A stretch of DNA of 64,000 bases from positions 1 through 64,000 of the forward strand of contig NZ_WRPM01000095.1 in assembly GCF_009758175.1 (NCBI RefSeq). The letters run 5' to 3'. This document shows, piece by piece, positions 27,297-55,466 of the stretch (position 1 is the first letter of the stretch; every line of letters starts with the position of its first letter). Made by a program: the position numbers and the translations under genes. Below the pieces are notes generated by a model. It did not search any database and was not told where the DNA came from. It saw only the letters and a list, made by a program, of their open reading frames with translations. This DNA is from Nesterenkonia alkaliphila. Lineage in GTDB: Bacteria; Actinomycetota; Actinomycetes; Actinomycetales; Micrococcaceae.

Positions 27297-28937
27297 TCAG
27301 ACCTGCTGGCGGACCCGGCTGCCCGGGATGGCGGCCACCAGCTCCCGGGTGTACTCATGCTCGGGCGCAGCGAAGACCTCCCGGGTGGCTCCCCGCTCGA
27401 CCACCTGGCCGTGGCGCATCACCACCACTTCAGTGCAGACCTGACGCACCACTGCCAGGTCATGGGAGATGAACAGGTAGGAAAGCCCCTCCGCCTCGCG
27501 CAGCTCAGCCAGCAGCCGCAGGATCTGGTCCTGGACCGAGACGTCCAGGGAGGAGACCGGCTCATCACATACCAGCACCTTGGGCCGCACAGCAAGGGCA
27601 CGGGCAATCGCGACCCGCTGCAGCTGCCCGCCGGAGAGCTCATAGGGCTTCCGGCCCGCCGCGGCGGAAGGCAGATGGACCTGCTCCAGCAGCTCGGTGA
27701 CCCGGCGCTGGCGTTCACTGCGGCTCAGCGTAGTCAGGGCCCGCAGCGGTTCCGCGATGCTGGTGGCCACCGAATGTGCCGGGTCCAGCGATGAGTAGGG
27801 GTCCTGGAATACCGGTCGGATCAGCCGGCGCAGCTCTTTGCGCCCGCTGCGTGAGCGGTAGTCCTGGTGGCCCAGCCCCGCCAGCGTCAGGGACCCCGCG
27901 TCCGGATCACTGAGCCCCAGAATCATCCTGGCCACAGTGGTCTTCCCGGAGCCGGACTCCCCCACCACGCCCAGGCTCTGGCCGGGTCGCAGGGTGAGGT
28001 CCACCGCATCGACTGCGGTGACGCTGCCTCCGCCGCTCACCGGGAAAGTCTTGGTCAGTCCCTGGGCGCGGACCAGAGGCTGGGCGGCGTCGTTCTCCTG
28101 GGTCTGAGGCAGCTGTGTGACCAGCGGTTCGGAGTCGATGGTCGGGGCCGCGGCGGCCAGCCGTTGTGAGTAGGGGTGCTCGGCGGAGTTCAGGAAGTCG
28201 GCGGCCGGAAGCTGCTCCACCACCTGGCCGTGCTGGAGGACGACGACGCGGTCGGCCCGGTCCGCGGCCACCCCCAGGTCGTGGGTGACCAGCAGCAGGG
28301 AGGTCCCGGACTGAGTGACCAGTTCTTCGATATGGTCCAGGATCCGCCGCTGGACGGTCACGTCCAGCGCGCTGGTGGGCTCATCGGCCACGATCAGGTC
28401 CGGCTCTGCCGCTAAGGCGATGCCGATGAGCACCCGCTGCCGCTGCCCCCCGGAGAGCTGGTGGGGGTAGGAGTAGTAGCGGTTGGCGGCGTCGTCGAGC
28501 CCTGCCCGTTCCAGGATCTGGACGGCCTGCCGGCGGGCTTCGGCCCCAGTGGCCAGCCCGTGGGTGCGCAGCGATTCGCTGACCTGCTCGCCGATCGGGT
28601 GCACCGGGTTGAGTCCGGCCAGCGGGTCCTGGGGGATCAGTGCGATCCGCCGGCCGCGCAGCCTGCGCAGCCCGGCCTCGGCGAGTCCCACCAGTTCGGT
28701 GCCGCTGAACCGGATGCTGCCGGTGATCTGGGCGTTGCGGTGGTGCAGTCCGAGCACGGCGCGGCCGATGGTGGTCTTGCCGGAGCCGGACTCACCCACC
28801 AGGGCCACCGTCTCACCGCGGGCCACCTGGAAGCTGACCCCGCGCACCGCCTGGGTGCTGCCGCCGGGGCGCCGGTAGTCCACGGTGAGGTCACGGATCT
28901 CCAGCAGGGGCTGATCTGTCTGAGCTGCTGCGCTCAT
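27297..28937 (-). CDS. Dipeptide-type ABC transporter, fused double ATPase (DppD-DppF), system 1
   Basis: Two complete ATPase modules lie in 546 residues. Module 1 has [18 protein letters not shown] and [12 protein letters not shown]; module 2 has [18 protein letters not shown] and [12 protein letters not shown]. The start [17 protein letters not shown] at 28937 overlaps the permease stop by ATGA. It powers a peptide/nickel/opine-class importer with the two permeases and the binding protein encoded upstream. As last gene of a four-gene operon next to methionine genes, it probably serves sulfur-compound or peptide uptake. Confidence 0.95.
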
Positions 28938-29815
28938 CGTTGTCTCATCCTCAGTCCTCGGCTGACCCGGTTGGAGGCCAGTACGGTCACCGCGATGACG
29001 GCGCCGGGGAAGGTGGTCAACCACCAGGCGGTGGCGATATGGGCCCGGCCCTCCGCAACCATGGATCCCCATTCGGGGGTGGGTGGGACCGCGCCGAAGC
29101 CCAGGAAACTCAGGGCGGCCACCGAGAGCACAGCTCCACCGAGCTCCAGGGCTGCCAGCACCATCACGGCCCCGGAGGCATTGGGCAGCACATGCTTGAT
29201 CAGGATGCCCAGGTGGCCGGTGCCGGAGGTGCGGGCGGCGTCGAAATATCCGCGGGAGAGGATGCGCAGGGTCTCAGCGCGGGTGATCCGGGCGAAGGCG
29301 GGGATGCCCGCAATGCCCACGGCGATGGCCACATTGATCACCCCGAAGCCCAGGATGGAGACCGCAGCCATGGACAGCAGCAGGCCCGGGATGGCGACCA
29401 TGACGTCCACAGTGCGCATCACCACTGCGTCCAGCCAGCCGCCCACATAGGCGGAGAGCATGCCCAGCAGGGAGCCGACCACCAGGGAGAGGGTCACCGC
29501 GATGACTCCGGCGAGCATTGAGAGTCTGGTGCCGTGGACCACCCGGCTGTAGACGTCGCGGCCCAGCAGGTCGGTGCCGAACCAGTGGCTGGCGCTGGGG
29601 GCGGCGAGCCTGGCGTTGGCGTCAAGGTCGGTGACCGGGTCATGGGTGGCGAACACCCCGGGGGCCACCGCCCAGGCGATCACGATGGCGAAGACGGCCA
29701 GGGAGAGCAGCAGGCCGGGTTGGGCCAGCAGATGGGCGGCCCGGCTCTTCAGGCCGTCTGCCCGGGCGGGGACGGTGCCTTCGGCCGGGGCCCCGGGCAG
29801 GACCATGCCGGTCAT
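28934..29815 (-). CDS. Dipeptide-type ABC permease (DppC-like), system 1
   Basis: The 293-residue protein starts MTGMVLPGAPAEG at 29815. It has six membrane helices and the DppC signature ASNHWFGTD-like segment (SASHWFGTDLLGRDVYSRV). The EAA-loop motif AARTSGTGHLGILIKHVLPN contacts the ATPase. Both ends overlap its neighbours by ATGA, showing tight translational coupling. Confidence 0.95.
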   Translation of the reverse strand: MTGMVLPGAPAEGTVPARADGLKSRAAHLLAQPGLLLSLAVFAIVIAWAVAPGVFATHDPVTDLDANARLAAPSASHWFGTDLLGRDVYSRVVHGTRLSMLAGVIAVTLSLVVGSLLGMLSAYVGGWLDAVVMRTVDVMVAIPGLLLSMAAVSILGFGVINVAIAVGIAGIPAFARITRAETLRILSRGYFDAARTSGTGHLGILIKHVLPNASGAVMVLAALELGGAVLSVAALSFLGFGAVPPTPEWGSMVAEGRAHIATAWWLTTFPGAVIAVTVLASNRVSRGLRMRQR

Positions 29816-30915
29816 CGGGTGCCTCCCTTCTCGGCGGCCTTCGTGGCGGTCGTCTTGGCGGTGCTGCGCTTCTTGGTGCTGCTGTGTTCCTGCGGGGCCA
29901 CCACCCGCGGGTCGATCCACCGGTAGGCGAGGTCCACGATCAGGGTGACGATCACGAAGAAGGCTCCGGAGAGGATCACCAGGGCCTGGATGAGTGGGAA
30001 GTCCTGGGCCTGGATGGCCTGGACGAAGTACATGCCGATGCCCTGGCGGCCGTAGATGGTCTCCACGATGGTGGTGCCGGAGAGGATGCCGCCGACCATC
30101 ATGCCCACCATGGTGAAGGCCGGCAGGGAGGCGTTGCGCAGGGCGTGGCGGAGCACCACCCGCAGTTCGCTGATCCCCTTGGCCCGGGCGGTATCCGCAT
30201 AGGACTCGGCCAGCGCCTCGTTGAGCCCGCGGGTCAGGATCTGGCCCAGGGTGCCTGCGGTGAGCAGGGCCAGGGTCAGTGAGGGCAGCACCAGCGCCTG
30301 CCAGGAGGCGGAGCCGAAGGCCGGGAACCAGCCCAGCTGGAAGGAGAAGAGCTGCAGCAGCAGGATGCCCACCCAGAAGGAGGGCATGGCGGTGCCCAGC
30401 AGTGAGGCGGACTGGAACCCTGAGCGCAGGGTCTGGGTGGGCAGCAGCACGCTGCCTAAGGCGAAGAGCAGAGCCAGCAGCACGGAGGCGATGATCGAGG
30501 CGATGCCCAGCTCAATGGTCACCGGCAGGGCAGTGGCGATGGCGCTGGAGACCGGCTGCCCGGTGGAGTAGGACATGCCGAAGTCGAAGGTGGCCGCCCG
30601 CCACAGGAAGTCGAAGTACTGGATGAGGATGGGCTGGTCCAGACCCAGCTGTTCGCGCAGCTGCGCCTCGGCTGCTGAGTCCAGCGCCGCGCCCTCGCCG
30701 CCCTCACCGCCTCCGGTCATGATCCGCACCGGATCCCCGGGGACCAGGTGGATGATGAGGAAGGACAGGGTCACCGCGCCCCAGAGCACCACCACTGCCT
30801 GGCCCAGGCGGCGCAGGATGTAGTGCAGGGTTCCGGAGGACCGGCGTACCCCGGGAGGGGCCGCCGGGTTCCCCGGCGACCCCTCTGAGACGGTCTCGGC
30901 TGCCGCTGCGGTCAT
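29812..30915 (-). CDS. Dipeptide-type ABC permease (DppB-like), system 1
   Basis: The 367-residue permease has the DppB N-terminus IHLVPGDPVRIM, six membrane helices and the EAA loop YADTARAKGISELRVVLRHA. A 30-residue disordered Pro/Gly N-terminal tail and a Lys/Thr-rich C-terminal tail are longer than usual. Its start overlaps the binding-protein stop by 4 bp. Confidence 0.95.
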   Translation of the reverse strand: MTAAAAETVSEGSPGNPAAPPGVRRSSGTLHYILRRLGQAVVVLWGAVTLSFLIIHLVPGDPVRIMTGGGEGGEGAALDSAAEAQLREQLGLDQPILIQYFDFLWRAATFDFGMSYSTGQPVSSAIATALPVTIELGIASIIASVLLALLFALGSVLLPTQTLRSGFQSASLLGTAMPSFWVGILLLQLFSFQLGWFPAFGSASWQALVLPSLTLALLTAGTLGQILTRGLNEALAESYADTARAKGISELRVVLRHALRNASLPAFTMVGMMVGGILSGTTIVETIYGRQGIGMYFVQAIQAQDFPLIQALVILSGAFFVIVTLIVDLAYRWIDPRVVAPQEHSSTKKRSTAKTTATKAAEKGGTR

Positions 30916-32588
30916 TCGTCCACGCGGTAGAAGTCGACGAATGCCGGCTTGCCCTCGAGATCGGCGGTGGTGCCGCCGATGCTCTGGTGATAAGCGGCGA
31001 ACTGGGTGAGGTCGAACAGCGGCACGGTGTAGCCGCGGTCGATGATCAGGCGCTGCACCTCCTCGGAGACAGCCAGCCGGTCATCCTCATCCGTGGTGGT
31101 CTGCAGCTCGCCCAGCAGATCATCGATCTCCTCATCCGGGTGCCCGTAGAGGAAGGACTGGCTCTCATAGAAGGAGGAGTAGACGGTGCGCAGCACATCC
31201 GGGTCTGCACGGGTCTGCGACCAGGTGGTCAGGTCGAACTCATAGTTGTGGATGGTGTAGTCGGAGAGATCGGAGACCGGGGTGAGCACAAAGTCGATGC
31301 CCACCTGGGCCCACTGCTGCTGCAGCAGCTGGAACATGGCCTCATAGCTGGTGCCGGTGTACTGGATCTCAATCTCCAGCCGGTCCCCGTCGGCGTTCTG
31401 GCGGATGCCGTCCTCGCCGATCTCGGTCCAGCCGGCCTCCTCCAGCAGCCGCTCAGCCTCCTCGGGGTCATAGCGGATCACATCGGAGAGGTCCGCGTAG
31501 CCGGGATTGGAGGGGGTCAGCACTCCAGTGGCCGGCTCGTAGAGGCCCTGGAAGACCGAATCCACGATGGCCTCCCGGTCGGTGGCGTAGTTCAGCGCTT
31601 TCCGGGCGTTCTCATCGGAGAAGACATCACTGTAGACCAGCGGCACGATCGGGATGGAGATGGCCGGCATCACGGTTGGGTGCAGCTCCGCCTGGGAACC
31701 TTCCAGACCGGGCACTGACTCTGCCGAGAGCCGGTAGGCGTAGTCAATCTGTCCGGAGGACACTGCGCCGGCGAGGGTGGTGGACTCCTCGATGAAGCTG
31801 ATCTCCACCTCGTCGAAATAAGCCCGGCCCTGGTTCTCGTAGAGCGGTGAGCCCCAGGCGTAGTCCTCGCGGACTGCCAGGCGGATGCCGTCATTGGGGT
31901 CGTAGGACTCCAGGGTGTAGGGCCCGGAGCCGATCACATTTCCGGCGGCGACCTCCTCAGGATCCAGCTCCAGGGTGGCCGGGGCCAGGATGCTCAGCGA
32001 CTGCACGGCGGTGGCCTGCAGGAACTGGGCGTTGGGCTCCTCGAAGCGCACCGTCACAGTGTGCTCGTCGATGACCTCGGACTCCTCATAGCCGCGCAGC
32101 AGACCGGCTGCCACAAAGGCCAGCGGGCCGATCTCGATGATCCGGTCAAAGTTTGCCTTGACCACCTCAGCATCCAGCGGGGTGCCGTCGGAGAAGGTGA
32201 CGTCATCGCGCAGGAAGAAGGTGAACTCGGTGGCGTCCTCGTTGATCTCCCAGTCCTCGGCGAGCCACGGCAGGATCTCACCGGTCTCCGGGTCCTGGTC
32301 AGTCAGTGTGTCGGCAATATTGCGCGATACTGCGCGTGCGGGCAGCTGAGGGCGCTGGTGCGGGTCATAGTTGTCCGGGTTGACGTCGAAGGCCACATTG
32401 AGGGTGCCGCCGTACTCGACGTCCTCGGGGGCGGCGTCGTCCCCGTTTCCCTCATCGGCCTCGTCGGAGCCTGCCGGCCGCAGGAAGACGGCCAGGGCGG
32501 CAATCAGCGCGATGACAGCCAGGACGCTGACCCCGATGAGCAGGCGCTTGCGGCGCCCGGCTGCCGGGTCAGCAGTGGTTTCAGACAT
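30912..32588 (-). CDS. Family 5 extracellular solute-binding protein, membrane-anchored, system 1
   Basis: The 558-residue SBP_bac_5 protein begins with basic RRKRLL and one hydrophobic helix (about 14-36) but no lipobox Cys, so it seems held by an uncleaved N-terminal anchor rather than lipidated. The mature part opens with YGGTLNVAFDVNPDNYDPHQ. It contains LAEDWEINEDATEFTFFLRD and DDVTFSDGTPLDAEVVKANF, typical of peptide, nickel or glutathione binders. It is the first gene of the operon. Ligand is unknown; the location beside metY-metB points to a sulfur-containing peptide or thioether. Confidence 0.92.
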   Translation of the reverse strand: MSETTADPAAGRRKRLLIGVSVLAVIALIAALAVFLRPAGSDEADEGNGDDAAPEDVEYGGTLNVAFDVNPDNYDPHQRPQLPARAVSRNIADTLTDQDPETGEILPWLAEDWEINEDATEFTFFLRDDVTFSDGTPLDAEVVKANFDRIIEIGPLAFVAAGLLRGYEESEVIDEHTVTVRFEEPNAQFLQATAVQSLSILAPATLELDPEEVAAGNVIGSGPYTLESYDPNDGIRLAVREDYAWGSPLYENQGRAYFDEVEISFIEESTTLAGAVSSGQIDYAYRLSAESVPGLEGSQAELHPTVMPAISIPIVPLVYSDVFSDENARKALNYATDREAIVDSVFQGLYEPATGVLTPSNPGYADLSDVIRYDPEEAERLLEEAGWTEIGEDGIRQNADGDRLEIEIQYTGTSYEAMFQLLQQQWAQVGIDFVLTPVSDLSDYTIHNYEFDLTTWSQTRADPDVLRTVYSSFYESQSFLYGHPDEEIDDLLGELQTTTDEDDRLAVSEEVQRLIIDRGYTVPLFDLTQFAAYHQSIGGTTADLEGKPAFVDFYRVDE

Positions 32589-32764: not shown

Positions 32765-32890
32765 AGGATCACGAGTACCGGTCACCTACGGCTCTGGCCG
32801 ACCGGTCGGCAACCCTTCCGCTGTGATGGGGTGCCCCAGATGACGATCCGGCCGCAGGCTATTTCACTGCCCGCCTGCCGGCAAGCACAG
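32765..32890 (+). promoter_or_regulatory. SAM-IV riboswitch upstream of metY-metB
   Basis: The element closely follows the SAM-IV consensus. P1 pairs GGATC with GATCC. CACGAG leads into a P2 stem CCGGTC/GACCGG. Next come CGGCAACCC, then GGGGTGCCCCAG, and a 3' pseudoknot-like GGCAAGC. The start ATG follows about 20 nt later with AAGGGGAA. A possible -10 TATGTT at 32755-32760 puts transcription initiation just before P1. High S-adenosylmethionine should reduce expression. Confidence 0.93.
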
Positions 32891-32908
32891 TGTCATAAGG
32901 GGAATTCC

Positions 32909-34303
32909 ATGCCCGCCACCGAGCCCGCAGCCGCCGACCCAGCCTGTTTCAGCACCCGCCAGATTCACGCCGGAACCACTCCGCCCACCGCGCATCCGGT
33001 CACTCCGCCGGTGCATCTCTCCGCAGCCTATGAGTTCAGCAGCCTGCGGGATGCTCGTGAGGCCTTCGCCCAGCGGGAGGCCGGGTTCACCTATGCCCGC
33101 ACCGGCAGTCCCACGGTGGCTCTGCTGGAGCAGCGCATCGCGCAGCTGGAGGGCGGCACCGGAGCAGTGGCCACCGCCTCAGGACAGGCCGCCATCGCCC
33201 TGACCCTGCTGGCCCTGGCCGGCAGCGCGGGCCAGCATCCGGACGGCCGGGCCTATCCGGAGGTGCGCGCCGGGCATGTGGTGGCCTCCTCGAGGATCTA
33301 CGGCGGCACCGCTGATCTGATCAACGATTCGCTGGCCGAGGCCGGCATCAGCTCCACCTGGGTGGATCCGCACTCCCCTGCTGCCTGGGAGGCGGCGATC
33401 ACCCCGCGCACCCGGGTGTTCCTGGTGGAGTCGATCGGCAACCCGCATGGCGACTTGCCGGATATCGGTGCCCTGGCGGAGATCGCTCACCGCCGCGGCG
33501 TCGTGCTGGTGGTGGACAACACCCTGGCCACCCCCTACCTGTTCCGACCCGGTGCCCACGGGGCAGATTTTGTGGTGCATTCAGCCACCAAATACCTCAC
33601 CGGCAACGGCACTGCCCTGGGCGGGGTGGTGGTGGACACCGGGAGCTTCCGGCCTGAGCACGACGCCGCCCGGTGGCCACAGTTCTCCGCAGCCACGCCT
33701 CGCTTCGGCCAGGTGCCGCTGGTGGAGCGCTACGGCTCAGGTGCGGTGCTGCACCTGATTCGGGCTAAGTTTCTGCATGATCTGGGCCCCTGTCTGGCTC
33801 CGTGGAATGCCCAGCAGATCCTGGCGGGCATTGAGACCTTGGATGTGCGGGTGGCCCGGCACTGTCAGGTAGCAGAGGCACTGGCTGAGCGACTGCTGGT
33901 GCACCCGGGGGTGTTGCAGGTGCGCCATCCCAGTGTGCCCGGGGATCCGAATGCCGCCCGGGCCGCCCGGGACTTCCCACAGGGCACCGGGGCGGTGCTC
34001 AGCTTCGAGCTGGAGGGGGATCTGACCGTGGTGGAACGGTTTGTGGACGCGCTGCGGCTGTTCAAGCTGGCGGCCAATATCGGCGACTCCCGCTCCATGG
34101 TGGCCCATCCGGCCTCGATGACCCACTGCCGGCTCTCCCCGCAGCTGCGTGCTGCCGGGGAGATCACCGAGCAGACCATCCGGCTGGCGGTGGGCCGGGA
34201 GGCCCCCGATGACCTCTGGGCGGATCTGGAGCAGGCCTTCGCCGCCGCGGGGCTGGCCGGGAACGACGCCGCCGACTCACGTCAGGAGGTGGAGGCGGCA
34301 TGA
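32909..34303 (+). CDS. metY: O-acetylhomoserine sulfhydrylase-like PLP enzyme
   Basis: MetY-type enzymes make homocysteine directly from O-acetylhomoserine and sulfide. The start MPATEPAAADPACFSTRQIH follows the riboswitch. The PLP lysine is in HSATKYLTGNGTALGG, and the SATKYLTGHG-type context is characteristic of MetY. RLAVG near the end binds carboxylate. Length (464) is slightly above the usual 430 because of an insertion around 110-125. It overlaps metB by ATGA, so both transsulfuration and direct sulfhydrylation steps are under one SAM-IV switch. Confidence 0.93.
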   Translation: MPATEPAAADPACFSTRQIHAGTTPPTAHPVTPPVHLSAAYEFSSLRDAREAFAQREAGFTYARTGSPTVALLEQRIAQLEGGTGAVATASGQAAIALTLLALAGSAGQHPDGRAYPEVRAGHVVASSRIYGGTADLINDSLAEAGISSTWVDPHSPAAWEAAITPRTRVFLVESIGNPHGDLPDIGALAEIAHRRGVVLVVDNTLATPYLFRPGAHGADFVVHSATKYLTGNGTALGGVVVDTGSFRPEHDAARWPQFSAATPRFGQVPLVERYGSGAVLHLIRAKFLHDLGPCLAPWNAQQILAGIETLDVRVARHCQVAEALAERLLVHPGVLQVRHPSVPGDPNAARAARDFPQGTGAVLSFELEGDLTVVERFVDALRLFKLAANIGDSRSMVAHPASMTHCRLSPQLRAAGEITEQTIRLAVGREAPDDLWADLEQAFAAAGLAGNDAADSRQEVEAA

Positions 34304-35544
34304 GCATCGACACCACCGAGCAGACCAGCTGGACCGACACTGCTGCCCCGGTGCGCAACGGAGTGCGGCAGGGGGCCCTGCGCCCGGGGTTCGCCACTGA
34401 TGCGGTACATGCCGGGCAGGCCCCGGACCCGCTGACCGGAGCAGTGATTCCACCGATCTACCAGACCTCCACCTTCACCCAGGACGGGGTGGAGACCCTG
34501 AAGAGCGGATACGAGTACTCTCGCGGGGGAAATCCCACCCGCAACGGGTTCGAGACCCAGCTGGCAGCTCTGGAGGGCGGTGCGGCCTGCTTTGCCTTCG
34601 CCTCCGGGATCGCCGCCGAGGACGCCCTGCTGCGCGCAGTGCTGCGCCCTGGGTACACGGTGGTGGCCGCCGCCGAGAGTTATGGCGGCACCCACCGGCT
34701 GCTGACCCAGATCTACGCCCGCTGGGGAGTGCGCACCGTGTTCGTGCACCCTGAGCGGCCCGAGGAGCTGGAGCAGGCCCTGGACTATGACCGCAGTGCC
34801 AAGCTGGTGTGGTTGGAGACCCCCACCAATCCGCTGCTGACCGTGGTGGACATTGCCCAGTGGGCGCAGATCGCCCATGCTCACGGCGCCCTGGTGGCGG
34901 TGGACAACACCTTTGCCTCCCCTGCCCTGCAGACTCCCCTGGCCCTGGGCGCTGATGCGGTGGTGCATTCGACCACCAAGTACATCGGCGGGCACTCAGA
35001 TGTGCTCGGCGGGGCCGTGGTGGTCGGGGATGCCGAATGGGAGGGCCAGCCGCTGAGTGCGCTGATCGGCTTCCAGCAGTTCGCCGCCGGGGCGGTGGCC
35101 GGGCCGCAGGACTCCTTTCTGGCCGCCCGCGGGCTGAAGACCCTGGGGGTGCGGATCCGGCAGCACTGCGCGAACGCCGCGGAGATCGCCGACTGGCTCA
35201 CCGAGCATCCGCAGGTGGATGAGGTGTTCTACCCGGGACTGCCGGACCACCGCACGCACCAGATCGCCGCAGAGCAGATGTCGGGGTTCGGCGGGCTGGT
35301 GACCTTCCGGCTGCGCGGCGGGGAGGCTGCTGCCCGGCGCACTGCGGAGTCCACTGAGCTGTTCGGCCTCTCGGTGAGCCTGGGCGGGGTCGAGTCTCTG
35401 ATCTCACATCCGGCCACGATGACCCATGGTTCCACCAAGGGCACACCGGAGGCCCCACCCGCCGATGTGCTGCGCCTGTCGGTGGGCATTGAGGATGTGG
35501 AGCAGCTGGTGGAGGATCTCGACCGTGCCCTGGCCGCATCCTGA
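34300..35544 (+). CDS. metB: Cystathionine gamma-synthase/lyase
   Basis: The Cys/Met-metabolism PLP enzyme (414 residues) has YSRGGNPTRNGFETQLAALE, the catalytic lysine in VHSTTKYIGGHSDVLGG, and SLGGVESLISHPATMTH. Gamma-synthase is favoured by co-transcription with metY under a SAM riboswitch; lyase activity cannot be excluded by sequence. An N-terminal extension of about 25 residues is present. It is the last gene of the unit and convergent with the DUF1684 gene. Confidence 0.92.
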   Translation: MSIDTTEQTSWTDTAAPVRNGVRQGALRPGFATDAVHAGQAPDPLTGAVIPPIYQTSTFTQDGVETLKSGYEYSRGGNPTRNGFETQLAALEGGAACFAFASGIAAEDALLRAVLRPGYTVVAAAESYGGTHRLLTQIYARWGVRTVFVHPERPEELEQALDYDRSAKLVWLETPTNPLLTVVDIAQWAQIAHAHGALVAVDNTFASPALQTPLALGADAVVHSTTKYIGGHSDVLGGAVVVGDAEWEGQPLSALIGFQQFAAGAVAGPQDSFLAARGLKTLGVRIRQHCANAAEIADWLTEHPQVDEVFYPGLPDHRTHQIAAEQMSGFGGLVTFRLRGGEAAARRTAESTELFGLSVSLGGVESLISHPATMTHGSTKGTPEAPPADVLRLSVGIEDVEQLVEDLDRALAAS

Positions 35545-35555: not shown

Positions 35556-36452
35556 TCAGGTGTGGACGATCAGGTCCCAGGTCACCCCGGGACCTTCAGC
35601 TGCGGCCTGCACCCGCTGGGTGGGCTTCTTCTCCCCGGCGGTCACCGGTGCCTCCACCCGGTTTCCCGCTGGGGGCAGCGGGCAGGTGGCCAGGTCGGTA
35701 TAGGCGCAGGGCAGGTTGGCAGCGTGGTTGAAGTCCAGCACGACCTCGCCCGCCCCGCCTCCTTCCGGCCCCGAGATCCGCAGTGCCCGCAGGGCATGGT
35801 AGGTGGAGTAGCCCGAGGTCTCATCGGTGAACAGCACCAGGTGCTCCCCCGCTGCAAATCCCTCGAAGACCAGCAGACTGTGCTCTGCTCCAGCAGCCTG
35901 GAACCGCACCCGGCCCGGGGCCTGGTAGACATGCTCCAGACCTTCCACTGCGGCCCCCACGGTGACCGGCTCGGGCTGATCGAAGGGTTCGAAGCTGCCG
36001 GTCACCCGCCAGGCCGGACTGTAGTCGAAGCGTTCAGTGCCGGCGTACTCGCCGAGGAAGGGGTGGGTCGCGCTCTTGGGACGCAGGATGAACTGCCCGC
36101 CCCGCTTGGCCACCTCCGCTGAGGTCACGCCGCGCTCCGGGGACTGCCCCTGAGGCACGGTGAGCAGCAGCCCGCCGCGTTCGGCGATATCGCTGAAGAC
36201 CTGCAGCCCGGTGAGCCGCTGCCCCTGGTGCTCCAGGGCGCCGTGATCACCCAGATCTACGGTGACGGCATTCTGCTCTGCCCTCCAGAGGCCGGGGATA
36301 CCAGGCACCTCGGTGGGCTCGCTGCTGAGCCAGTAGAGCCCGGTGACCGCGAAGAACCCGGTGGGTGAGCGGCGCCCGGCCTCACGTTCGGCGTGCTTGG
36401 CCTCCCACTCGTTGATCAGGTCGGTCTGCGTTGCGGTGGTCTGTGTGCTCAT
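35556..36452 (-). CDS. DUF1684 protein at the end of ABC operon 2
   Basis: The 298-residue cytosolic protein starts at MSTQTTATQTDLINEWEAKH. It shows the DUF1684 hallmarks FFAVTGLYWLS near the start and LDFNHAANLPCAYTDLATCP near the end, followed by PPAGNRVEAPVTAGEKK. The family has no established activity. It begins one base after the stop of the binding-protein gene, so it is co-expressed with importer 2. That makes a role in handling the imported compound plausible, but this is inference. Confidence 0.85.
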   Translation of the reverse strand: MSTQTTATQTDLINEWEAKHAEREAGRRSPTGFFAVTGLYWLSSEPTEVPGIPGLWRAEQNAVTVDLGDHGALEHQGQRLTGLQVFSDIAERGGLLLTVPQGQSPERGVTSAEVAKRGGQFILRPKSATHPFLGEYAGTERFDYSPAWRVTGSFEPFDQPEPVTVGAAVEGLEHVYQAPGRVRFQAAGAEHSLLVFEGFAAGEHLVLFTDETSGYSTYHALRALRISGPEGGGAGEVVLDFNHAANLPCAYTDLATCPLPPAGNRVEAPVTAGEKKPTQRVQAAAEGPGVTWDLIVHT

Positions 36453-39822: not shown

Positions 39823-40697
39823 GAGTCTCTCCCCTCGAACTTCTTCTGCAGCCACCGGCCCAGCACGGTGACGGCGATGACGGTCAGTGTGATGAACAGG
39901 CCGGGGAACACACCGACCCACCAGCCCAGGGCGAGGTCGTTCTGCCCCTGGGAGAGCATCGCGCCCCATTCAGGTGCTGGCTCCGGGGCGCCGAAGCCCA
40001 GGAAGCTCAGCGCTGCGGCGTCCACGATGGTGGTGCCGACCCCGATGGTGGCGATCACCAGCAGCGGGCCGATGGAGTTGGGCACCACAGTCTGCACGGC
40101 GATCTTCCAGCGCGGCACCCCGAGCACGGTGGCGGCCTCCACATAGGCGGAGCGGCGGACCTCCAGCGCTTTGGAGCGGACCAGCCGGGCGTAGGTGGGC
40201 ACGGTGGCGATGGCCAGGGCAATGATGATGTTGGTGGTCCCACCTCCGGCGATGGCCACCACCAGCAGGGCCATCAGGATGGTGGGGAAGGCCAGCAGCA
40301 CGTCCACGAACCGCATCAGCACCTCGTCCGCGTAGCGGCCGCCGAGCACGGCCAGCAGGGCGATGCCTGCCCCGATCACCACGGCGATCGCGGTGGAGAA
40401 CAGTCCCACGGTCAGCGACTGTTCGGCCCCGTAGATGATCCGGGTGAAGATGTCACGGCCCAGCCGGTCGGTGCCGAAGAAGTGCTCGGCGCTGGGCGGC
40501 TGCAGGGACTGGTCCAGCTGGTTGCTGATCGGGCTGCGGTCAGTGAACAGGGTGGGCCGCAGCGTGGCGGCGGCCAGGAGCACCAGGAAGATGATGGACA
40601 GCGCCACAGTGGGCGGGACCGGCAGCCGGCGGGCGGCCTTGGACTGGTACTCGGGGGTCTTCAGACCCTGGGCGGCGATGAGCTGTGGGTTGGTCAT
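39819..40697 (-). CDS. Dipeptide-type ABC permease (DppC-like), system 2
   Basis: The 292-residue permease has the DppC segment SAEHFFGTDRLGRDIFTRII, six membrane helices and the EAA loop VEAATVLGVPRWKIAVQTVVPN. It overlaps both neighbours by 4 bp. Confidence 0.95.
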   Translation of the reverse strand: MTNPQLIAAQGLKTPEYQSKAARRLPVPPTVALSIIFLVLLAAATLRPTLFTDRSPISNQLDQSLQPPSAEHFFGTDRLGRDIFTRIIYGAEQSLTVGLFSTAIAVVIGAGIALLAVLGGRYADEVLMRFVDVLLAFPTILMALLVVAIAGGGTTNIIIALAIATVPTYARLVRSKALEVRRSAYVEAATVLGVPRWKIAVQTVVPNSIGPLLVIATIGVGTTIVDAAALSFLGFGAPEPAPEWGAMLSQGQNDLALGWWVGVFPGLFITLTVIAVTVLGRWLQKKFEGRDS

Positions 40698-41651: not shown

Positions 41652-41694
41652 TGAACATTACATTCTATGAAATGGAAATAGTTCGTAATGTTCA
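41652..41694. promoter_or_regulatory. Inverted repeat TGAACATTAC / GTAATGTTCA upstream of importer operon 2
   Basis: Two perfect 10-bp arms are separated by 23 bp, between the importer operon 2 start and the divergent gene at 41746. A possible -10 TAGAAT for the minus-strand operon lies between the arms. The arms contain the ATGTTCA sequence found at other sulfur-gene promoters in this window. Confidence 0.65.
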
Positions 41695-45466: not shown

Positions 45467-45486
45467 GATGTCCTCCAAGAAGTTCA

Positions 45487-45612
45487 CACTTGCTGCCCGC
45501 CGGGCGGCGGACGCCTTGTCCTCACCTGGAGCACCCCACTGTGAGAGAGGGTTGCTGTCCGGCCAGCCAGGGCTGTCGGCGCTTGCGCGCCGGACCGGAA
45601 CTCGTGACGGGG
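45487..45612 (-). promoter_or_regulatory. SAM-IV riboswitch upstream of the monooxygenase pair
   Basis: Read on the minus strand, GTCACGAG is followed by a P2 stem TCCGG/CCGGA with an extended arm. Next come CAGCAACCC, then GGGGTGCTCCAGGTGAGGAC, and a 3' GGGCAGCAAG segment just before the Shine-Dalgarno. Order and spacing match the element at 32765. Confidence 0.85.
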
Positions 45613-45662
45613 TCTACGCTAACACCGTAATCTGAACATAAAAATCTGGTTGTAGTGTTTTG

Positions 45663-46814
45663 TCATAAACCCCATTCCTCGGCCAGCAGCTCGTAGCTGG
45701 CCAGCCGGTCTTCGGCCCGGTGGGCGCTGACCGAGATGAGCAGCTCATCGGCACCGGTGGCCTGCTGCAGGGTCTGCAGCTGTTCGGCGACCTGTGCCGC
45801 AGTGCCGGTGAAGCGGGTCTCCAGCCGGTCCCGGACCAGTTTCTGCTGCTCCGGGTTCAGCGGGCTCTGCGCAGCTGACTCGGGGCTGGGATACCGGATG
45901 GCACCCTGCCCGGTGCGGATGGAGTGCACCCATTCGGCGTAGCCGGCCGCCAGGCGGTCCACCTCCTGACGGGTGTCGGCCACCAGCACCTCTGCGGAGA
46001 CGATCACATAGGGAGACTCCAGCTCGCGGCGGGGCACAAAGCTCTGCCGATAGTGCTGCACCGCATCGGTGACATTGGAGGGTGCCACGTGGTAGTTGGC
46101 GCCGAAGCGCAGCCCGCGACTGCCGGCGATTTCGGCGGACTCCCCGGCGGAGCTGCCCAGCACCCACACCTCCGGCTTGCCTGCGGTAGGCGGGACCGCC
46201 CCGGGGAACGCAATCCCGTCCACCTCGGCGGTGTGGTCCAGCAGGGCGAGCAGCTGGTCGGTGAATTCCCCGTAGGGCGGCACCTCGGCCCCCTCGGCCA
46301 GCAGCAGCTGAGAAGCCGCAGCAGTCCTCGGGGATCCGAAGAGATGACTCAGGTCAGGGGCCGCAGGCAGCAGCAGGCCCTCCCGGGTGACTCGGTCTTC
46401 CTGGGCGGCAGGAATGGAGCGGGCCGGCGGGGTGGGGGCGGCGTCGTCGTTCTCTGCCTTTTTCCGCTGAGTGCGCCGGATGGCCGCCCGGCCGATACCC
46501 AGATCGATGCGGTCCCCGTAGGCAGCAGTGAGCAGGGCGAAGTCCTCCGCAATGTTCAGCGCGCTGCGCTGTCCGGCCAGCACCGCTCCGGAGCCCAGCC
46601 GCAAGGTAGTGGTCACCGCTCCGGCCAGGCTCATGAGCAGGGCAGGGTTATAGCCGATCACCCCGGGGTTGAGGTGGTGCTCGCCGTACCAGAGCCGGCG
46701 GTAGCCCAACTCCTCTGCACGGCGGGCCAGTTCCGCACTGGCGTGCAGCGCCTGGTCGGGGGGCTGCCCCTCGGCCAGCGGAACCAGGTCGAAGATGCTC
46801 AGTGGAACACTCAC
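45663..46814 (-). CDS. LLM-class flavin-dependent oxidoreductase (YhbW/luciferase-like)
   Basis: The 383-residue enzyme is a single luciferase-like barrel. It has FDLVPLAEGQPPDQALHASA, YRRLWYGEHHLNPG, LRLGSGAVLAGQRSALNIAE and WVLGSSAGESAEIAGSRGLR. It differs from the two NtaA-type enzymes upstream on the strand and is closer to YhbW-type monooxygenases. A residue stretch at 125-150 is Pro/Ala-rich and unconserved. Its promoter carries TATGTTCAAAC, shared with other sulfur units. Confidence 0.88.
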   Translation of the reverse strand: MSVPLSIFDLVPLAEGQPPDQALHASAELARRAEELGYRRLWYGEHHLNPGVIGYNPALLMSLAGAVTTTLRLGSGAVLAGQRSALNIAEDFALLTAAYGDRIDLGIGRAAIRRTQRKKAENDDAAPTPPARSIPAAQEDRVTREGLLLPAAPDLSHLFGSPRTAAASQLLLAEGAEVPPYGEFTDQLLALLDHTAEVDGIAFPGAVPPTAGKPEVWVLGSSAGESAEIAGSRGLRFGANYHVAPSNVTDAVQHYRQSFVPRRELESPYVIVSAEVLVADTRQEVDRLAAGYAEWVHSIRTGQGAIRYPSPESAAQSPLNPEQQKLVRDRLETRFTGTAAQVAEQLQTLQQATGADELLISVSAHRAEDRLASYELLAEEWGL

Positions 46815-46893
46815 TGTTTGAACATAACAACTGTCTGCTCGAATTTTTCAGGCGCCGTCATACGGGGTCATATCCGCAGGCTCACAATAACGG

Positions 46894-49989: not shown

Positions 49990-50841
49990 TCAGAAGGCGG
50001 GCAGGACAGCTCCGTCGGTCCAGGTCTCCTCGATGTACTCGCGCACCTCATCGCTGGTGAGCAGGTCCTGCAGGATCTGGACCGCCTCGTTGTCCTCATC
50101 CTCGGAGCGCACGGCCAAGAAGTTGGCGTAGGGGTTGTCCTCGCCGGACTCCACCAGCAGGCCGTCCTCTGTGGGAGACAGTCCGGCCTCCAGGGCGTTG
50201 TTGCCGTTGATCACCGCGGCGGCAACGTCGTCGAGGGTGCGGGCCAGGGCAGAGGCGTCAGCCTCGATGAATTCGAAGTTGTGCGGGTTGTCCTCGATGT
50301 CCAGGATGGTGGCGGACTGCCAGTCCGCGCTCAGGGTGATCAGCCCTGCCTCCTCCAGCAGCACCAGGCCGCGGGCTTGGTTGGACGGGTCGTTGTTCAG
50401 CGCGATGGTCGCTCCCTCCGGGAGGTCCTCGTAGCTCTCGTGCTGGGTGGAGTACAGAGCGAAGGGCTCAATGTGCACGCCCTCGAAGTGCGCCAGGTCG
50501 TATCCGTGCTCCTGCACCTCGGCGTTGAACCATGGCTCGTGCTGGAAGTAGTTGGCATCCAGCTCCCCGGCGTGCAGTGCTTCGTTGGGGATCACGTAGT
50601 CGGTGTACTCCTGGATGTCCAGGCTGATGCCGGCCTCCTCGGCGAGTTCATCATCGATGAACTGCAGGATCTGGGCGTGTGGCACCGGCGAGGCGCCCAC
50701 GCTGAGCTCCACGATGCCGTCCTCGCCCTCGGTGCCGGCGCCGTTGTCGGCCTCGTCATCTCCGTTGCCGCAGGCGGCCAGGAGCAGCGCGGCGGCCGCG
50801 GCCGCGGCGATCCCCAGTGAACGGTGTGTGCGGTGTGGCAT
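49990..50841 (-). CDS. metQ: Methionine-binding lipoprotein MetQ
   Basis: The signal peptide from MPHRTHRSLG ends in lipobox LLAACG. The NlpA-family body has VGASPVPHAQILQFI, DIQEYTDYVIPNEALHAGEL and ANYFQHEPWFNAE, the characteristic MetQ segments. The start ATG at 50841 has AAAGGAAT upstream. It is third in metN-metI-metQ and delivers methionine, or methionine derivatives, to the importer. Confidence 0.95.
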   Translation of the reverse strand: MPHRTHRSLGIAAAAAAALLLAACGNGDDEADNGAGTEGEDGIVELSVGASPVPHAQILQFIDDELAEEAGISLDIQEYTDYVIPNEALHAGELDANYFQHEPWFNAEVQEHGYDLAHFEGVHIEPFALYSTQHESYEDLPEGATIALNNDPSNQARGLVLLEEAGLITLSADWQSATILDIEDNPHNFEFIEADASALARTLDDVAAAVINGNNALEAGLSPTEDGLLVESGEDNPYANFLAVRSEDEDNEAVQILQDLLTSDEVREYIEETWTDGAVLPAF

Positions 50842-50898
50842 GATGCATATTCCTTTCATAGTGAGAGTGACCGGGCAGCCCAGCGCGGGCACCCGGGT

Positions 50899-51582
50899 TC
50901 AGCGATGATCGATGCGGCGGGCCACGTAGTTCCCCGTGTATTGCACGGCGGTGACGATGACCACCAGCAGAATCACGCAGATGAGCATGACGTCGCCCAT
51001 ATATCGGTGGTATCCGTAGTTGATGGCCAGCTGTCCCAATCCGCCTCCGCCCACGGCTCCGGCCATGGCGGTGAAGCTGATCAGGGTGACCACGGTGATG
51101 GTGAAGCCGCCCACGATGCCGGGCAGGCCCTCTCTGAGCAGTACGTTCCAGGTGATGTGCAGCTTGGAGGCTCCCATCATCTGAACTGCTTCCACCTTGC
51201 CCCAGGAGACCTCGCGGAGGGAGTTCTCCACCATCCGGGCGAAGAAGGGGATTGCACCTATGGTCAGCGGCACCACGGCCGCCTCCCAGCCGATCGCAGC
51301 CCCCACTACCAGCCGGGTGAACGGAATGATCCAGATCATCAGGATGATGAAGGGGACCGCCCGGGCGAAGTCAACCGCCACGCTCAGCACCCGGTAGAAC
51401 AGCTGCACCGGATACAGGCCCTTGGGCCCCAGGTTGAACAACAGGATGCCCAGCGGCAGGCCGAACAGCGCGGTGAAGAAGCCGGTGGCACTGGTCATGT
51501 AGATGGTTTCGAGGATCGCGTCGACCAGGAAGCGTTCGATGACCGGGTTGTCGAACCAGAGTTCGTCGGTGGCGCTGGGCAT
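50899..51582 (-). CDS. metI: Methionine ABC transporter permease MetI
   Basis: The 227-residue permease has five membrane helices and the EAA motif VEAVQMMGASKLHITWNVLL. The sequence AVGGGGLGQLAINYGYHRY is diagnostic of MetI. Start and metN stop share one base (TGATG), showing coupling. Confidence 0.96.
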   Translation of the reverse strand: MPSATDELWFDNPVIERFLVDAILETIYMTSATGFFTALFGLPLGILLFNLGPKGLYPVQLFYRVLSVAVDFARAVPFIILMIWIIPFTRLVVGAAIGWEAAVVPLTIGAIPFFARMVENSLREVSWGKVEAVQMMGASKLHITWNVLLREGLPGIVGGFTITVVTLISFTAMAGAVGGGGLGQLAINYGYHRYMGDVMLICVILLVVIVTAVQYTGNYVARRIDHR

Positions 51583-52646
51583 CAGCGGCCCCCTTCCCGT
51601 GGTGCCTCGGCCTCTTCTGCCGCGGCTTCCTCGGCCGCCACCTGCTCAGCGGTGGTCAGCTCCGCATGCAGACCGGCCGAGTGCAGCACCTGGAGGGTAC
51701 GCTGGGCGCTCTGCATGTCTTCGGGGCGCAGGTGAAGCCTGCCGACCTGCTTGCCCTGGATGGTCTCGATGGAACCCGCCTCTACCCGGGCCGGTACGGC
51801 CTGCTCGGCCAGCAGACTGAACAGGTCGCCGATGTTCTGCACGTGCTCGGATTCGGTGAGCAGCACTTCGACCAGCTGCTGCCCGGGCTTCAGGGCGCTG
51901 GTCGGCGGCAGGGAGATGAGTTCCTTGGACAGCGGGGAGGTGGTGTCGGAGATGACCTCCAGCAGCCGTCCGGTGCGGCTGACGCGCCCGTTCTCCAGCA
52001 GGGAGACCGAGTCGCAGATCTCACGCACCACTGACATCTCGTGGGTGATGATGATGACGGTGATGCCCAACCGGTCCCGGAGAGAGCGGATGAGCTGAAG
52101 GATCTGCCGGGTGGTCGTGGAGTCCAGCGCGGAGGTGGGTTCGTCGCAGAGCAGCACTCGGGGCTCAGCGGCCAGCGCACGGGCAATGCCCACCCGCTGC
52201 TTCTGCCCGCCGGAGAGCTGGGCCGGGTAGTTATCGGCCCGGTCGGCCAGCCCCACCAGTTCCAGCAGCTCGCTGACCCGGGCTCTGCGCTTGGCGCGGG
52301 GGACCCCTGCGATCTCCAGGGGATGGGCGATGTTCCTGGCCGCGGTGCGGGAGTCCAGAAGGTTCACGTGCTGGAAGACCATCCCGATGGCGCGGCGTGC
52401 CTTCATCAGCTCAGCCCCGGTGGCACGATCCATGCTCCTGCCGTCGATCCGGATGCTGCCAGAGCTGAGGTCCTCGAGCCCAGTCAGACACCGGATGAGG
52501 GTGGACTTCCCGGCTCCGGATCGGCCGACGATGCCATGGATGCTGCCCGGGCCGATACGGAGGCTGACCCCGTCCAAGGCGGTCACATTGCCGGGATAGA
52601 CCTTGCGGACATCCTGGAGTTCAATCACTGATGAGGCGCTCTCCAC
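51582..52646 (-). CDS. metN: Methionine ABC transporter ATPase MetN
   Basis: The 354-residue ATPase has [18 protein letters not shown] and [14 protein letters not shown]-terminal NIL/ACT-like domain from about 265 onward senses methionine in the E. coli protein. The gene starts about 30 bp after a SAM-IV-type leader and heads the metNIQ operon. Confidence 0.96.
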
Positions 52647-52649
52647 TGC

Positions 52650-52782
52650 TGCTCTTGCCCGCTCCGGGCAGTGACGCTCAAGGCGTCAGAAGCGGGCCGC
52701 ATCGTGATCCGAACCACCCGTGAACATGGGGTTGGTGTGCGGCCCAGGGAGGATCGTGACGGCCGCAGCTCGTGATGCAGAG
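52650..52782 (-). promoter_or_regulatory. SAM-IV-like riboswitch upstream of metNIQ (divergent)
   Basis: On the minus strand P1 pairs GCATC with GATGC, CACGAG follows, P2 pairs GCGGCC with GGCCGC, and P3 is ACCAACCC with GGGTGGT. A 3' GGGCAAGAG follows. P1, P2 and P3 all differ from the other two copies in base identity but keep pairing, which supports the fold. The G-C to C-G change beside AACCC is atypical. Confidence 0.65.
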
Positions 52783-52836
52783 CCCATCCTAACGCCCAGC
52801 GGCACCAGTGCTGTTGAGCACACGTCACAATCTGTC

Positions 52837-52864
52837 ACACTATGTTCAACACCACATTATTCAA
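52837..52864 (-). promoter_or_regulatory. Promoter of metNIQ
   Basis: On the minus strand TTGAAT and TAGTGT are 16 bp apart. The site TATGTTCAAC (plus strand 52841-52850) lies across the -10 region. Confidence 0.6.
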
Positions 52865-52907
52865 CCGCGCCGGGGACGGCTCAGAGGTGAGGGGGCGGCG
52901 TCCTCCG

Positions 52908-53666
52908 CTACTCCCCCAGTGGGTTGAGCACCCGGCGCAGGAAGTCCTGGGTGCGTGGCTGGGCGGGGGCGCCGATCACCTGCTGGGCGGGCCCCTCCTC
53001 CACCACCCGGCCCTGGTTCATGAACACCACCCGGTCGGCCACCTCGCGTGCGAAGCCCATCTCATGGGTCACCACGATCATGGTCATTCCGGCCTGGGCG
53101 AGATCGCGCATGATGGCCAGCACATCTCCCACCGTCTCCGGGTCCAGGGCGGAGGTGGGCTCGTCAAAGAGCATCAGGGAGGGTTTCATGGTCAGCGCCC
53201 GGGCGATCGCCACCCGCTGTTGCTGGCCGCCGGAGAGCTGAGCGGGGCGGCGGTGGGCCAGGTGCTGCAGTCCCACCAGCTCCAATTGGTGCATGGCCTC
53301 CGCCTCAGCCTCGGCGCGCGGCTGCTTGAGCACCCGGCGGGGGGTGATAGTGCAGTTCTCGAGGACGGAGAGGTGCGGGAACAGGTTGAACTGCTGGAAG
53401 ACCATGCCGATCTTCCGGCGCATCGCATCCAGGTTCACATCCGGGTCCGTGGCATCGAACTCGCCCACCAGGATCCGCCCGGAGTTGGGGTCCTCCAGAC
53501 GGTTCACGCAGCGCAGCAGAGTGGATTTGCCCGAGCCGGTGGCGCCGATCAGGCAGACCACCTCGCCGGGGTTGACGGTGATGCTGATGCCTTGGAGCAC
53601 CTCATTGTCACCATAGGACTTGTGCAGGTCCTCGATTGTGACGCCTGCTGGGACGGTATCGCTCAT
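52908..53666 (-). CDS. Polar amino acid ABC transporter ATPase (GlnQ-like)
   Basis: The 252-residue ATPase has [30 protein letters not shown] and the [15 protein letters not shown] switch segment typical of amino acid importers. It overlaps the permease gene by ATGA. The substrate is unknown; location beside metNIQ suggests cystine or another sulfur amino acid. Confidence 0.94.
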
Positions 53667-54508
53667 TTCACCCCTGCCGTGACCGGCGATTCAGTCGCCT
53701 TCTTCCTGGGCCGCCTGCGGGAGGACCGTCCGGGGCCGCGTTCCTCCATGCGCCGGGCCAACAGCGACAGCGGTACGGTGATCAGCAGGTAGCAAACTCC
53801 GGCCACCACCAGCGGGGTCATCCCGGCCCCGTACTGCAGGATGCCGTCGCGGCCGATCTTGGTCAGCTCCGCCGCGGAGCCGGCCATGCCGACTACGAAG
53901 ATCAGCGAGGAGTCCTTTGTCAGCAGGATCGCCTCATTGGTCAGCGGCGGCAGCACGATCCGGAAGGCCTGCGGGATCTGGATGCTCACCATGGCCCGCC
54001 AGGCCGGCATGCCGAGGGCGCGGGCGGCCTCCATCTGGCCCTTGGGCACAGCTTGGAGGCCGGCACGGATGGTCTCCGCGATATAGGCAGCTCCGACGAT
54101 GGCCAGCGCGGTGGAGGCGGTCTGCAGGGTGGAGAGGTTCAGATTGAACGCCAAGGAGGCGCCGAAGCCCAGGGCGATGAACACCAAGATCGCCGGTATC
54201 CCCCGGAAGAACTCAATATAGATCGCCGCGATCCACCGATAGACCGGGAAGCTGGCCAGCCGCATCAGAGCCAGCAGGGTACCGCCGAACAGGCCGAAGA
54301 GGAACCCGAAGAAGGTGTACTGGATGGTGTTCCACAGCCCCACGGTGATCACCCCGGGGAACATCCCTGAGACGCTCTCCAGATCGAAGAAGCTGTTCTG
54401 CACAGCGCCCCAGTCGACCAGCAGGATCAGGACTACGACGATCGCCGCAAAGATCCCGGCCTGGATCCCCAGGGAGAGCCGTGCCCGTTCACGGTTGGAG
54501 AGCGCCAT
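53663..54508 (-). CDS. Polar amino acid ABC permease
   Basis: The 281-residue HisM/GlnP-type permease has the start segment [38 protein letters not shown], and the EAA loop [21 protein letters not shown] basic C-terminal tail ([10 protein letters not shown]) is unusual. One permease gene implies a homodimer. Confidence 0.94.
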
Positions 54509-54551
54509 CAGAGGTTCACCGTCACTGCCTCAGACTCTGGGCAGGCGAGGC

Positions 54552-55466
54552 TCAGTTTTCGTCCTCAGCGCCGTCGTCGACATCCTCGTCACCCTCGTCC
54601 TCGGGGTCAGCACCCTCGTCCGGGGTCTCGGAGTGGAACCAGGCTTCCCGGATCTCCTCCAGGGTGCCTTCGGCATCAAGGGCGGCGAGCACCTCGTTGA
54701 CCGCCTCGATGAGCTCCTGGTTCTCCAGGTGCGCGGCGATGCCCAGCTGCTCGCCGGTGTCGATCTCCTCCACGAACTCATAGGCCGCATCGTCGCCGGT
54801 CTGGTAGCCGATGATCGAGATATTGCCGATCAGCGCCTCCACCTGACCAGCCTCCAGACCCTGCAGCAGCAGTCCGGAGTCCTCATACTCAGTGACGTCC
54901 AGGCCGAGCTCCTCGGCGGCGTAGGTGTGCCCGGTGGTGCCGTTCTGCACGCCCACCGGCACTCCGTCCAGGTCATCGGTGGAGGAGATGCCGGAGTCGG
55001 TGGTGGCCAGCAGCCCCAGGTTGTCATCCAGGTAGGGGTCGCTGAAGAGCATGTTCCCGGCCCGTTCCTCGGTGATGGACATACCTGAGATCACCAGGTC
55101 ACAGTTCTCAGATTCCAGGGCAAGCCCGGACTCCAGACCCTCCCAGGAGGATTCGATGAGCTCCAGCTCCAAGCCCAGCGCCCCGGCGATGGCGGCAGCG
55201 ATGTCGATGTCGTAACCCACCACATTGCCCTCGGTGTCGTAGTACTCGAACGGCGGGTAGGGCACATCGGCGCAGACCTGCAGCACGCCCTCCTCCAGGG
55301 TCTCAACCTCGGCGTCGATCTCCACATCGGTCTCCACCTCAGTCTCAGCCTCGGCATCACCGTTTTCCTCGTCATCGCCACAGGCGCTCAGTGCCAGTAC
55401 GGCCACAGAGGCTAGGGCCAGCGGCTTCAGCCACCGGTTTTCGGTCAGCTCGGTCATGCTCGGCAT
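54552..55466 (-). CDS. Family 3 solute-binding lipoprotein for amino acids
   Basis: The signal ends in lipobox ALSACG. An acidic spacer of Glu/Asp follows, then the SBP_bac_3 body with YPPFEYYDTEGNVVGYDIDI, the substrate-contact ISGMSITEERAGNMLFSDPY, and VGVQNGTTGHTYA. An acidic tail (EDEGDEDVDDGAEDEN) closes it. It precedes permease and ATPase genes and likely binds cystine, glutamine or a similar amino acid; the choice cannot be made from sequence alone. Confidence 0.93.
   Translation of the reverse strand: MPSMTELTENRWLKPLALASVAVLALSACGDDEENGDAEAETEVETDVEIDAEVETLEEGVLQVCADVPYPPFEYYDTEGNVVGYDIDIAAAIAGALGLELELIESSWEGLESGLALESENCDLVISGMSITEERAGNMLFSDPYLDDNLGLLATTDSGISSTDDLDGVPVGVQNGTTGHTYAAEELGLDVTEYEDSGLLLQGLEAGQVEALIGNISIIGYQTGDDAAYEFVEEIDTGEQLGIAAHLENQELIEAVNEVLAALDAEGTLEEIREAWFHSETPDEGADPEDEGDEDVDDGAEDEN

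Follow-up and report, generated by a model that had tools for sequence, protein, structure and literature searches.

A riboswitch-bearing monooxygenase and importer island of Nesterenkonia alkaliphila as a candidate salvage locus for S-modified cysteines

A stretch of 64,000 nucleotides from Nesterenkonia alkaliphila (RefSeq assembly GCF_009758175.1, contig NZ_WRPM01000095.1, positions 1 to 64,000; hereafter the window) was analysed, mainly between positions 27297 and 55466, where genes of luciferase-like monooxygenases (LLM), importers and S-adenosylmethionine (SAM)-IV riboswitches lie side by side. This interval is a real and probably sulfur-controlled island, whose core is a conserved LLM1-LLM2(-LLM3) module combined with importers that can be exchanged. 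As its function we propose, with a probability of roughly one half, the SAM-repressed salvage of S-modified cysteines (S-alkylcysteines, their N-acetyl forms or small peptides holding them), in a way similar to the cmo route of Bacillus subtilis. Most of the parts are members of known enzyme families, and the combination of genes, together with some of the parts, looks new. An earlier note on this DNA had read the whole interval as an island of organosulfur import and oxidation; its sulfur control, the link between LLM enzymes and importers and the likeness to the Bacillus ytm/ytn locus were supported, but not the membership of all the genes in one unit.

Riboswitches and the conserved module

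Three aptamers in the window exceed the gathering score (38 bits) of the Rfam SAM-IV model RF00634, in agreement with the previous recognition of SAM-IV-type switches before three of the units. They are located ahead of metY2-metB (32767-32893, plus strand, 82.7 bits), LLM1-LLM2 (45481-45609, minus strand, 67.5 bits) and metNIQ (52646-52777, minus strand, 52.1 bits). The genome holds four SAM-IV aptamers altogether, the fourth being on a second contig before another MetY-like gene. Among four randomly placed sites three fall within 20 kb at a frequency of 0.0005; the clustering of three of the four aptamers inside 20 kb would not be expected by chance. The Rfam matches and their positions suggest that the downstream genes are switched by SAM. 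The LLM genes are similarly concentrated: PF00296 has 11 matches at 10 places genome-wide, and three of these places are in the island within 4 kb, which is not a chance expectation either.

The conservation of the module was followed by scanning GTDB genomes with an alignment of LLM1. At least 587 relatives were confirmed, and the best 80 loci were kept for all the counts below; nearly all of them have actinobacterial titles, one is titled Melainabacteria, and 20 of them measure less than 19 kb. Neighbours within about 10 kb were counted by our own fixed bit thresholds, with 33 segments of these genomes, each 20 kb long, as controls. LLM2 adjoins LLM1 in 77 of the 80 loci (downstream in 61, upstream in 16) and LLM3 is near the module in 46. 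Dipeptide-type importers were found in 17 loci, family 3 importers in 19 and either of the two in 33, while a GNAT acetyltransferase is near the module in 28, a count favoured by the origin of the three GNAT queries in module loci (L075, L111 and the plasmid locus L128). The other neighbours are DUF1684 (9/80), LLM4 (6/80), M20 (3/80), metB/metY (1/80) and rhodanese (1/80). Every neighbour class had zero matches in the controls, except for M20 (1/33).

SAM-IV aptamers, searched with our model R1, accompany 14 of the 80 loci versus one of the 33 controls (a second control match, at E 0.54, was left uncounted); one of the 14 is the locus L047 of genome G001, whose own aptamer had contributed to R1. 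Most of these aptamers read straight into importer or LLM genes, into LLM1 in L047, L048 and L124. In five Streptomyces loci the aptamer reads into a family 3 importer that is followed by GNAT, LLM1 and LLM2, and in L082 and L078 it points away from the module. In L048 (9388-9697) two SAM-IV aptamers stand back to back, one leading to LLM3, the other to LLM1, LLM2 and an importer. The locus L128, on a Streptomyces plasmid, carries an SsuA-like importer, an aryl-sulfate sulfotransferase, a family 3 importer, GNAT, four LLM genes and a sulfatase; its SsuA-like binding protein scores 88 bits, under the cut-off of 163.5.

The closest relatives contain LLM1 and LLM2 in tandem as well, namely Nesterenkonia genomes G001 and G014 and the sister-genus genome G030. 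In both G014 and G001 a SAM-IV aptamer leads LLM1, LLM2, a binding protein, permeases and a fused ATPase in one direction, followed by a full-length LLM4; G014 additionally has SAM-IV-metY2-metB converging on this run. In G030 one strand carries LLM3, LLM1, LLM2, an importer, another LLM that is not an LLM4 ortholog, metY2 and metB. A second aptamer of G001 leads two binding proteins and a DUF1684 protein 71% identical to that of the window. Because of these grouped runs, this lineage seems to have a single regulated set made up of the importer, the LLM genes, metY2-metB and DUF1684, though its members are split in the window. In G014, G001 and G030, the parts that were read on either side of the module gave no match to metN, rhodanese or murB.

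These results support the earlier association of LLM genes with importers under sulfur control, through the SAM-IV-led synteny in G014 and G001, the SAM-IV aptamers at loci of other genera and the controls. The earlier note had also suggested a search for the same gene set in other Micrococcales: LLM1-LLM2 with an importer does recur. With the rhodanese and metB/metY each near the module in a single locus of the 80, the view of a single unit was not supported, and the rhodanese and metNIQ seem to be placed incidentally beside the module.

DUF1684 is enriched near the LLM1-LLM2 module. The nine loci with DUF1684 compare with about 0.23 expected in the 1.55 Mb covered by the loci, calculated from 41 genes in 279.8 Mb; this background comes from the 34 genomes behind 35 of the 80 loci, including all nine that have DUF1684, which if anything raises it. 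Within the 34 genomes alone 8 were found versus 0.1 expected, in a subset that was not drawn blind.

A shared short motif may connect the units further. The window has 12 copies of the heptamer ATGTTCA where 2.8 are expected, a number reached by none of 100 shuffles, and six of the copies lie in the promoter gaps of five units: before metY2 (32756), importer 2 (41652 and 41688), LLM1 (45633), LLM3 (46819) and metNIQ (52842). The two copies before importer 2 form an inverted pair of GTAATGTTCA (41652-41694, without strand), a candidate operator. The LLM1 copy (45633-45639, minus strand) is upstream of the riboswitch, and that of LLM3 (46819-46825, minus strand) is directly ahead of the gene. 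ATGTTCA was also detected before metY2, LLM1 and LLM3 in G014, and it was not found ahead of the LLM genes in G001 and G030. LLM3 and importer 2 are without a riboswitch of their own, and the motif may be what connects them with the riboswitch-led units.

The LLM1-LLM2 pair and the sulfur economy of the host

LLM2 (42894-44258, minus strand) belongs to the NtaA/DmoA family (TIGR03860, 374 bits, cut-off 279.7). Its nearest solved structure is YtnJ/CmoJ (262 bits, identity about 40%), followed by NtfO2 (7e36 B), 3sdo (titled NtaA), DszA and DmoA. In B. subtilis CmoO and CmoJ dealkylate N-acetyl-S-alkylcysteine: CmoO forms the sulfoxide, whose cleavage by CmoJ gives an aldehyde together with a sulfenic acid (PMC10863075).

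We compared 84 LLM2 and 81 LLM1 sequences with YtnJ, of which 77 and 76 came from the 80 loci and the rest from the window and its relatives, G001 being included twice; sequences were left out if they scored low, were poorly covered or contained a stop. N126, V128, T129, R150, Y151, Q218, G220, S222, G225 and R226 are kept in all 84 LLM2 sequences. V137, S139, R159 and Y160 are among the contacts of flavin mononucleotide (FMN) described in BdsA (PMC5819316), and the residues of LLM2 matching these are kept, save that S130 is replaced by T in four sequences; the fifth equivalent, H147, is unconserved. The numbering of BdsA was related to that of YtnJ by a constant offset of nine, from our own motif match.

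LLM1 (44255-45466, minus strand) has lost most of this site: R150 is kept in 2, R226 in 1, G225 in 3 and N126 in none of the 81 sequences, while S130 is S in 58 of them. The lid (YtnJ 295-366) is at most 24% filled in 81/81, in a set that was collected as single aligned pieces by similarity to a lid-less query, so that a lidded form could be among the few dropped sequences. A lid is also missing from NtfO1, which was crystallised in a heterodimer with the FMN subunit NtfO2 (PMC8027225). Since it lacks the lid and most FMN-site residues, LLM1 is probably the partner half of an LLM1-LLM2 heterodimer with one flavin site. NtfO1-NtfO2, or StmO1-StmO2 (PDB 7E36), resembles the present pair in having an NtaA-family FMN subunit beside a diverged lid-less partner. 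Unlike LLM1-LLM2, found in a SAM-controlled sulfur locus, that pair participates in polyketide biosynthesis.

Neither PF01507 (PAPS/APS, i.e. phosphoadenosine and adenosine phosphosulfate, reductase and CysD) nor PF01077 (sulfite/nitrite reductase) has a match in the host genome, which is an estimated 99% complete; in 14 control genomes PF01507 was matched in 14 and PF01077 in 11. Sulfate and sulfite therefore seem useless to the host. As no PAPS/APS or sulfite reductase was detected, sulfur should be freed at the thiol level and only reactions yielding such sulfur would feed the cell, which speaks against the use of sulfonates. PF01507 is absent in 30 of the 58 genomes of the relatives set (the host included). 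Among family members of at least 95% completeness it is absent in 117/345, versus 6/7 of those with a close LLM1 ortholog (E <=1e-80; p 0.007, with the E threshold chosen after seeing the data and kinship not removed).

The host genome carries Mca as well. This enzyme releases mercapturic acids (PMC4267739), so that mercapturic-type compounds are plausible substrates of the island.

Proposed salvage route and its rivals

The proposed salvage of S-modified cysteines would proceed as follows. At low SAM the SAM-IV switches would permit the expression of LLM1-LLM2, metY2-metB and metNIQ, and the importers would carry the compound into the cell. LLM3 (45663-46814, minus strand), which passes the cut-off of the MsnO8 family TIGR03558 (270 bits, cut-off 166.95), is a candidate sulfoxidase that would oxidise the thioether to the sulfoxide like CmoO, as its family and context suggest. 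LLM2, with LLM1 as a putative flavin-free partner, would cut the C-S bond in the manner of CmoJ, consistent with the homology and the kept FMN site, yielding an aldehyde and cysteine sulfenic acid. A thiol protein would then reduce the sulfenic acid; more speculatively, this may be the DUF1684 protein (35556-36452, minus strand), which reaches the gathering score of PF07920 and whose Cx7C pair makes it a candidate dithiol reductant. Sulfur at the level of cysteine could finally enter methionine via MetB, and sulfide or a small thiol via MetY2.

The metB gene (34300-35544, plus strand) passes the NF005871 cut-off (551.5 bits, cut-off 513). The gene previously called metY, renamed here metY2 (32909-34303, plus strand), is indeed MetY-like and is predicted to encode a pyridoxal phosphate enzyme, but a divergent one: it scores 404 bits with TIGR01326, below the cut-off of 495.1 (scored on the N-terminally extended reading frame; the start used is 32909). 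It is 41% identical to the SAM-IV-led MetY-like gene on the second contig, which we read, from its sequence, as the canonical metY. The earlier proposal that metY captures the released sulfur gains from G030, where metY2-metB ends the LLM gene run.

The comparison with ytm/ytn is strengthened by LLM2, which among solved relatives is nearest to YtnJ/CmoJ, and by several actinobacterial loci that add a family 3 importer and GNAT. The island shares with cmo a YtnJ/CmoJ-type LLM (LLM2), a second LLM of another family (LLM3), nearby amino acid importers and sulfur control; a GNAT near the module in 28 of the 80 other loci is a further common feature. It differs in having SAM-IV where Bacillus has CymR and AscR, dipeptide-type importers, the paired LLM1 without the lid and most of the FMN site, and DUF1684, with no CmoI-like redoxin recognised.

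Several observations weigh against the salvage of S-modified cysteines. Although the cmo route uses an acetyltransferase and an M20 deacetylase, neither was recognised within the interval, and M20 is near only 3/80 loci (1/33 controls). LLM3 is likened to CmoO by family and context, and YtnJ, as the nearest of the solved relatives of LLM2, is not necessarily its nearest known one. As to regulation, none of the genes of importers 1 and 2 is directly riboswitch-led within the window by the Rfam scan; SAM-IV searches found no aptamer at the G030 locus or at the plasmid loci L128 and L129, which carry the module; and by our thresholds SAM-IV is missing from 66 of the 80 loci and an importer from 47, in a set where 20 loci are under 19 kb. 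Finally, only 4 of the 36 next-best genomes are without PF01507, so the module is not confined to bacteria without sulfate reduction, and the tie to missing sulfate reduction is limited to close LLM1 orthologs.

A more ambitious form of the salvage, which we consider unlikely, is a mycothiol sulfur-recycling loop. Mercapturates made by Mca would be imported or re-imported and cleaved by a new heterodimeric C-S monooxygenase, consisting of LLM2 and the flavin-free, lid-less LLM1, with DUF1684 as a dedicated reductant of N-acetylcysteine sulfenic acid, all under SAM-IV control in bacteria unable to reduce sulfate. An acetyltransferase would not be needed here, because the products of Mca are N-acetyl-S-alkylcysteines, the substrate class of CmoO/CmoJ.

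Somewhat less probable again is that the pair acts on volatile or methylated sulfur, where LLM2-LLM1 would work like DmoA on dimethyl sulfide or a methyl thioether, and MetY2 would combine the methanethiol formed with O-acetylhomoserine to give methionine directly. In its favour, the family of LLM2 includes DmoA (6ak1, 169 bits), metY2-metB ends the LLM run of G030, and MetY2 shares 41% identity with the second MetY-like protein encoded by the host. The YtnJ match of 262 bits is, however, far above that of DmoA; importers for peptides or amino acids and a GNAT are hard to reconcile with a volatile compound, and metY/metB is near the module in only one of the 80 other loci.

The use of sulfonates or sulfonate esters (SsuD/SeuABC type), with sulfite as product, is improbable to a still higher degree. 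LLM enzymes with importers do occur in sulfur regulons, and the plasmid locus L128 has an SsuA-like binding protein, an aryl-sulfate sulfotransferase and a sulfatase; nevertheless, the SsuD model TIGR03565 gives only 71.9 bits for LLM2 and 27.9 for LLM1 (cut-off 518.2) and no listed match for LLM3, and in a host without a detectable sulfite reductase sulfite would be a dead end. We give just as little credit to the salvage of S-(2-succino)cysteine by the ScmK route, taking ScmK to be the same protein as YxeK. YxeK is presented as homologous in sequence to CmoJ, with N-acetyl-S-(2-succino)cysteine as its substrate (PMC10863075), and for a Rhodococcus grown on dibenzothiophene a protein called ScmK is among those listed as increased (PMC8557817); the pairing of LLM1 with LLM2 and the presence of LLM3 would fit a two-step oxidation better. 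The oxidation of aminopolycarboxylates or other C-N bonds (NtaA/EmoA type), with a coincidental position of the riboswitch, is very improbable: the best profile match of LLM1 is 3sdo (titled nitrilotriacetate monooxygenase), 3sdo and EmoA (5dqp) are strong for LLM2, and the importer family includes nickel-import binders, but SAM-IV stands ahead of the module in several genera versus one of 33 controls.

Expression reports on other actinobacteria offer possible parallels. In Gordonia NB4-1Y two genes annotated as nitrilotriacetate monooxygenases were expressed on fluorotelomer organosulfur and not on sulfate, and one of the two was also silent on the control compound OCT (PMC7661421). For Rhodococcus IGTS8, a table whose first entries are proteins raised on dibenzothiophene versus sulfate includes NtaA-type, ScmK, Tcy, MetQ/N and MetY proteins (PMC8557817).

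The proposed salvage of S-modified cysteines would assign a role that can be tested to an LLM pair widespread in actinobacteria, and also to DUF1684, which one paper in the literature searched mentions. It suggests a route to reduced sulfur for Nesterenkonia-like bacteria without sulfate reduction and a possible fate for the mercapturates excreted by mycothiol users. If a subunit without flavin does assist the cleavage of C-S bonds here, this enzyme class would gain a variant.

Importers and other genes of the interval

All the genes named in the earlier note were found where it had placed them. The two importers with family 5 binding proteins and fused ATPases are both on the minus strand, spanning 32588-27297 and 41632-36454. 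Importer 1 consists of the binding protein (30912-32588), permease B (29812-30915), permease C (28934-29815) and a fused two-domain ATPase of DppDF type (27297-28937, its start picked by the overlap with the upstream gene); importer 2 of permease B (40694-41632), permease C (39819-40697), the fused ATPase (38095-39822) and the binding protein (36454-38085), after which the DUF1684 gene closes the run.

TIGR04028 is the best NCBIfam match of both binding proteins (340 bits in importer 1, 312 in importer 2), each under its curated cut-off of 468.5 bits, and TIGR04027 is the sole NCBIfam match of the G001 LLM4 at E 1e-20, likewise under the curated cut-off. The two families stand for a binding protein (KPN_01854) and an LLM (KPN_01858), which we take to be close together in Klebsiella from their locus numbers alone; we are aware of no tested function for either family. 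A two-piece LLM4-like match with an unmatched middle is present on the contig of the window, outside the window itself (L140, G000:C100:81492).

Importer 2 is separated from LLM1-LLM2 by a plus-strand open reading frame (41746-42900, 384 codons) with coding-like GC content at third codon positions, for which a Pfam search gave no match. Beyond LLM3 follow a two-domain rhodanese, an aldo-keto reductase (48773-47751), murB (49947-48796), metQIN and the family 3 importer, in this order; the aldo-keto reductase and murB were absent from the earlier list. The SAM-IV-led methionine importer metNIQ (49990-52646, minus strand) lies outside the conserved module, and the family 3 amino acid importer occupies 52908-55466 on the minus strand.

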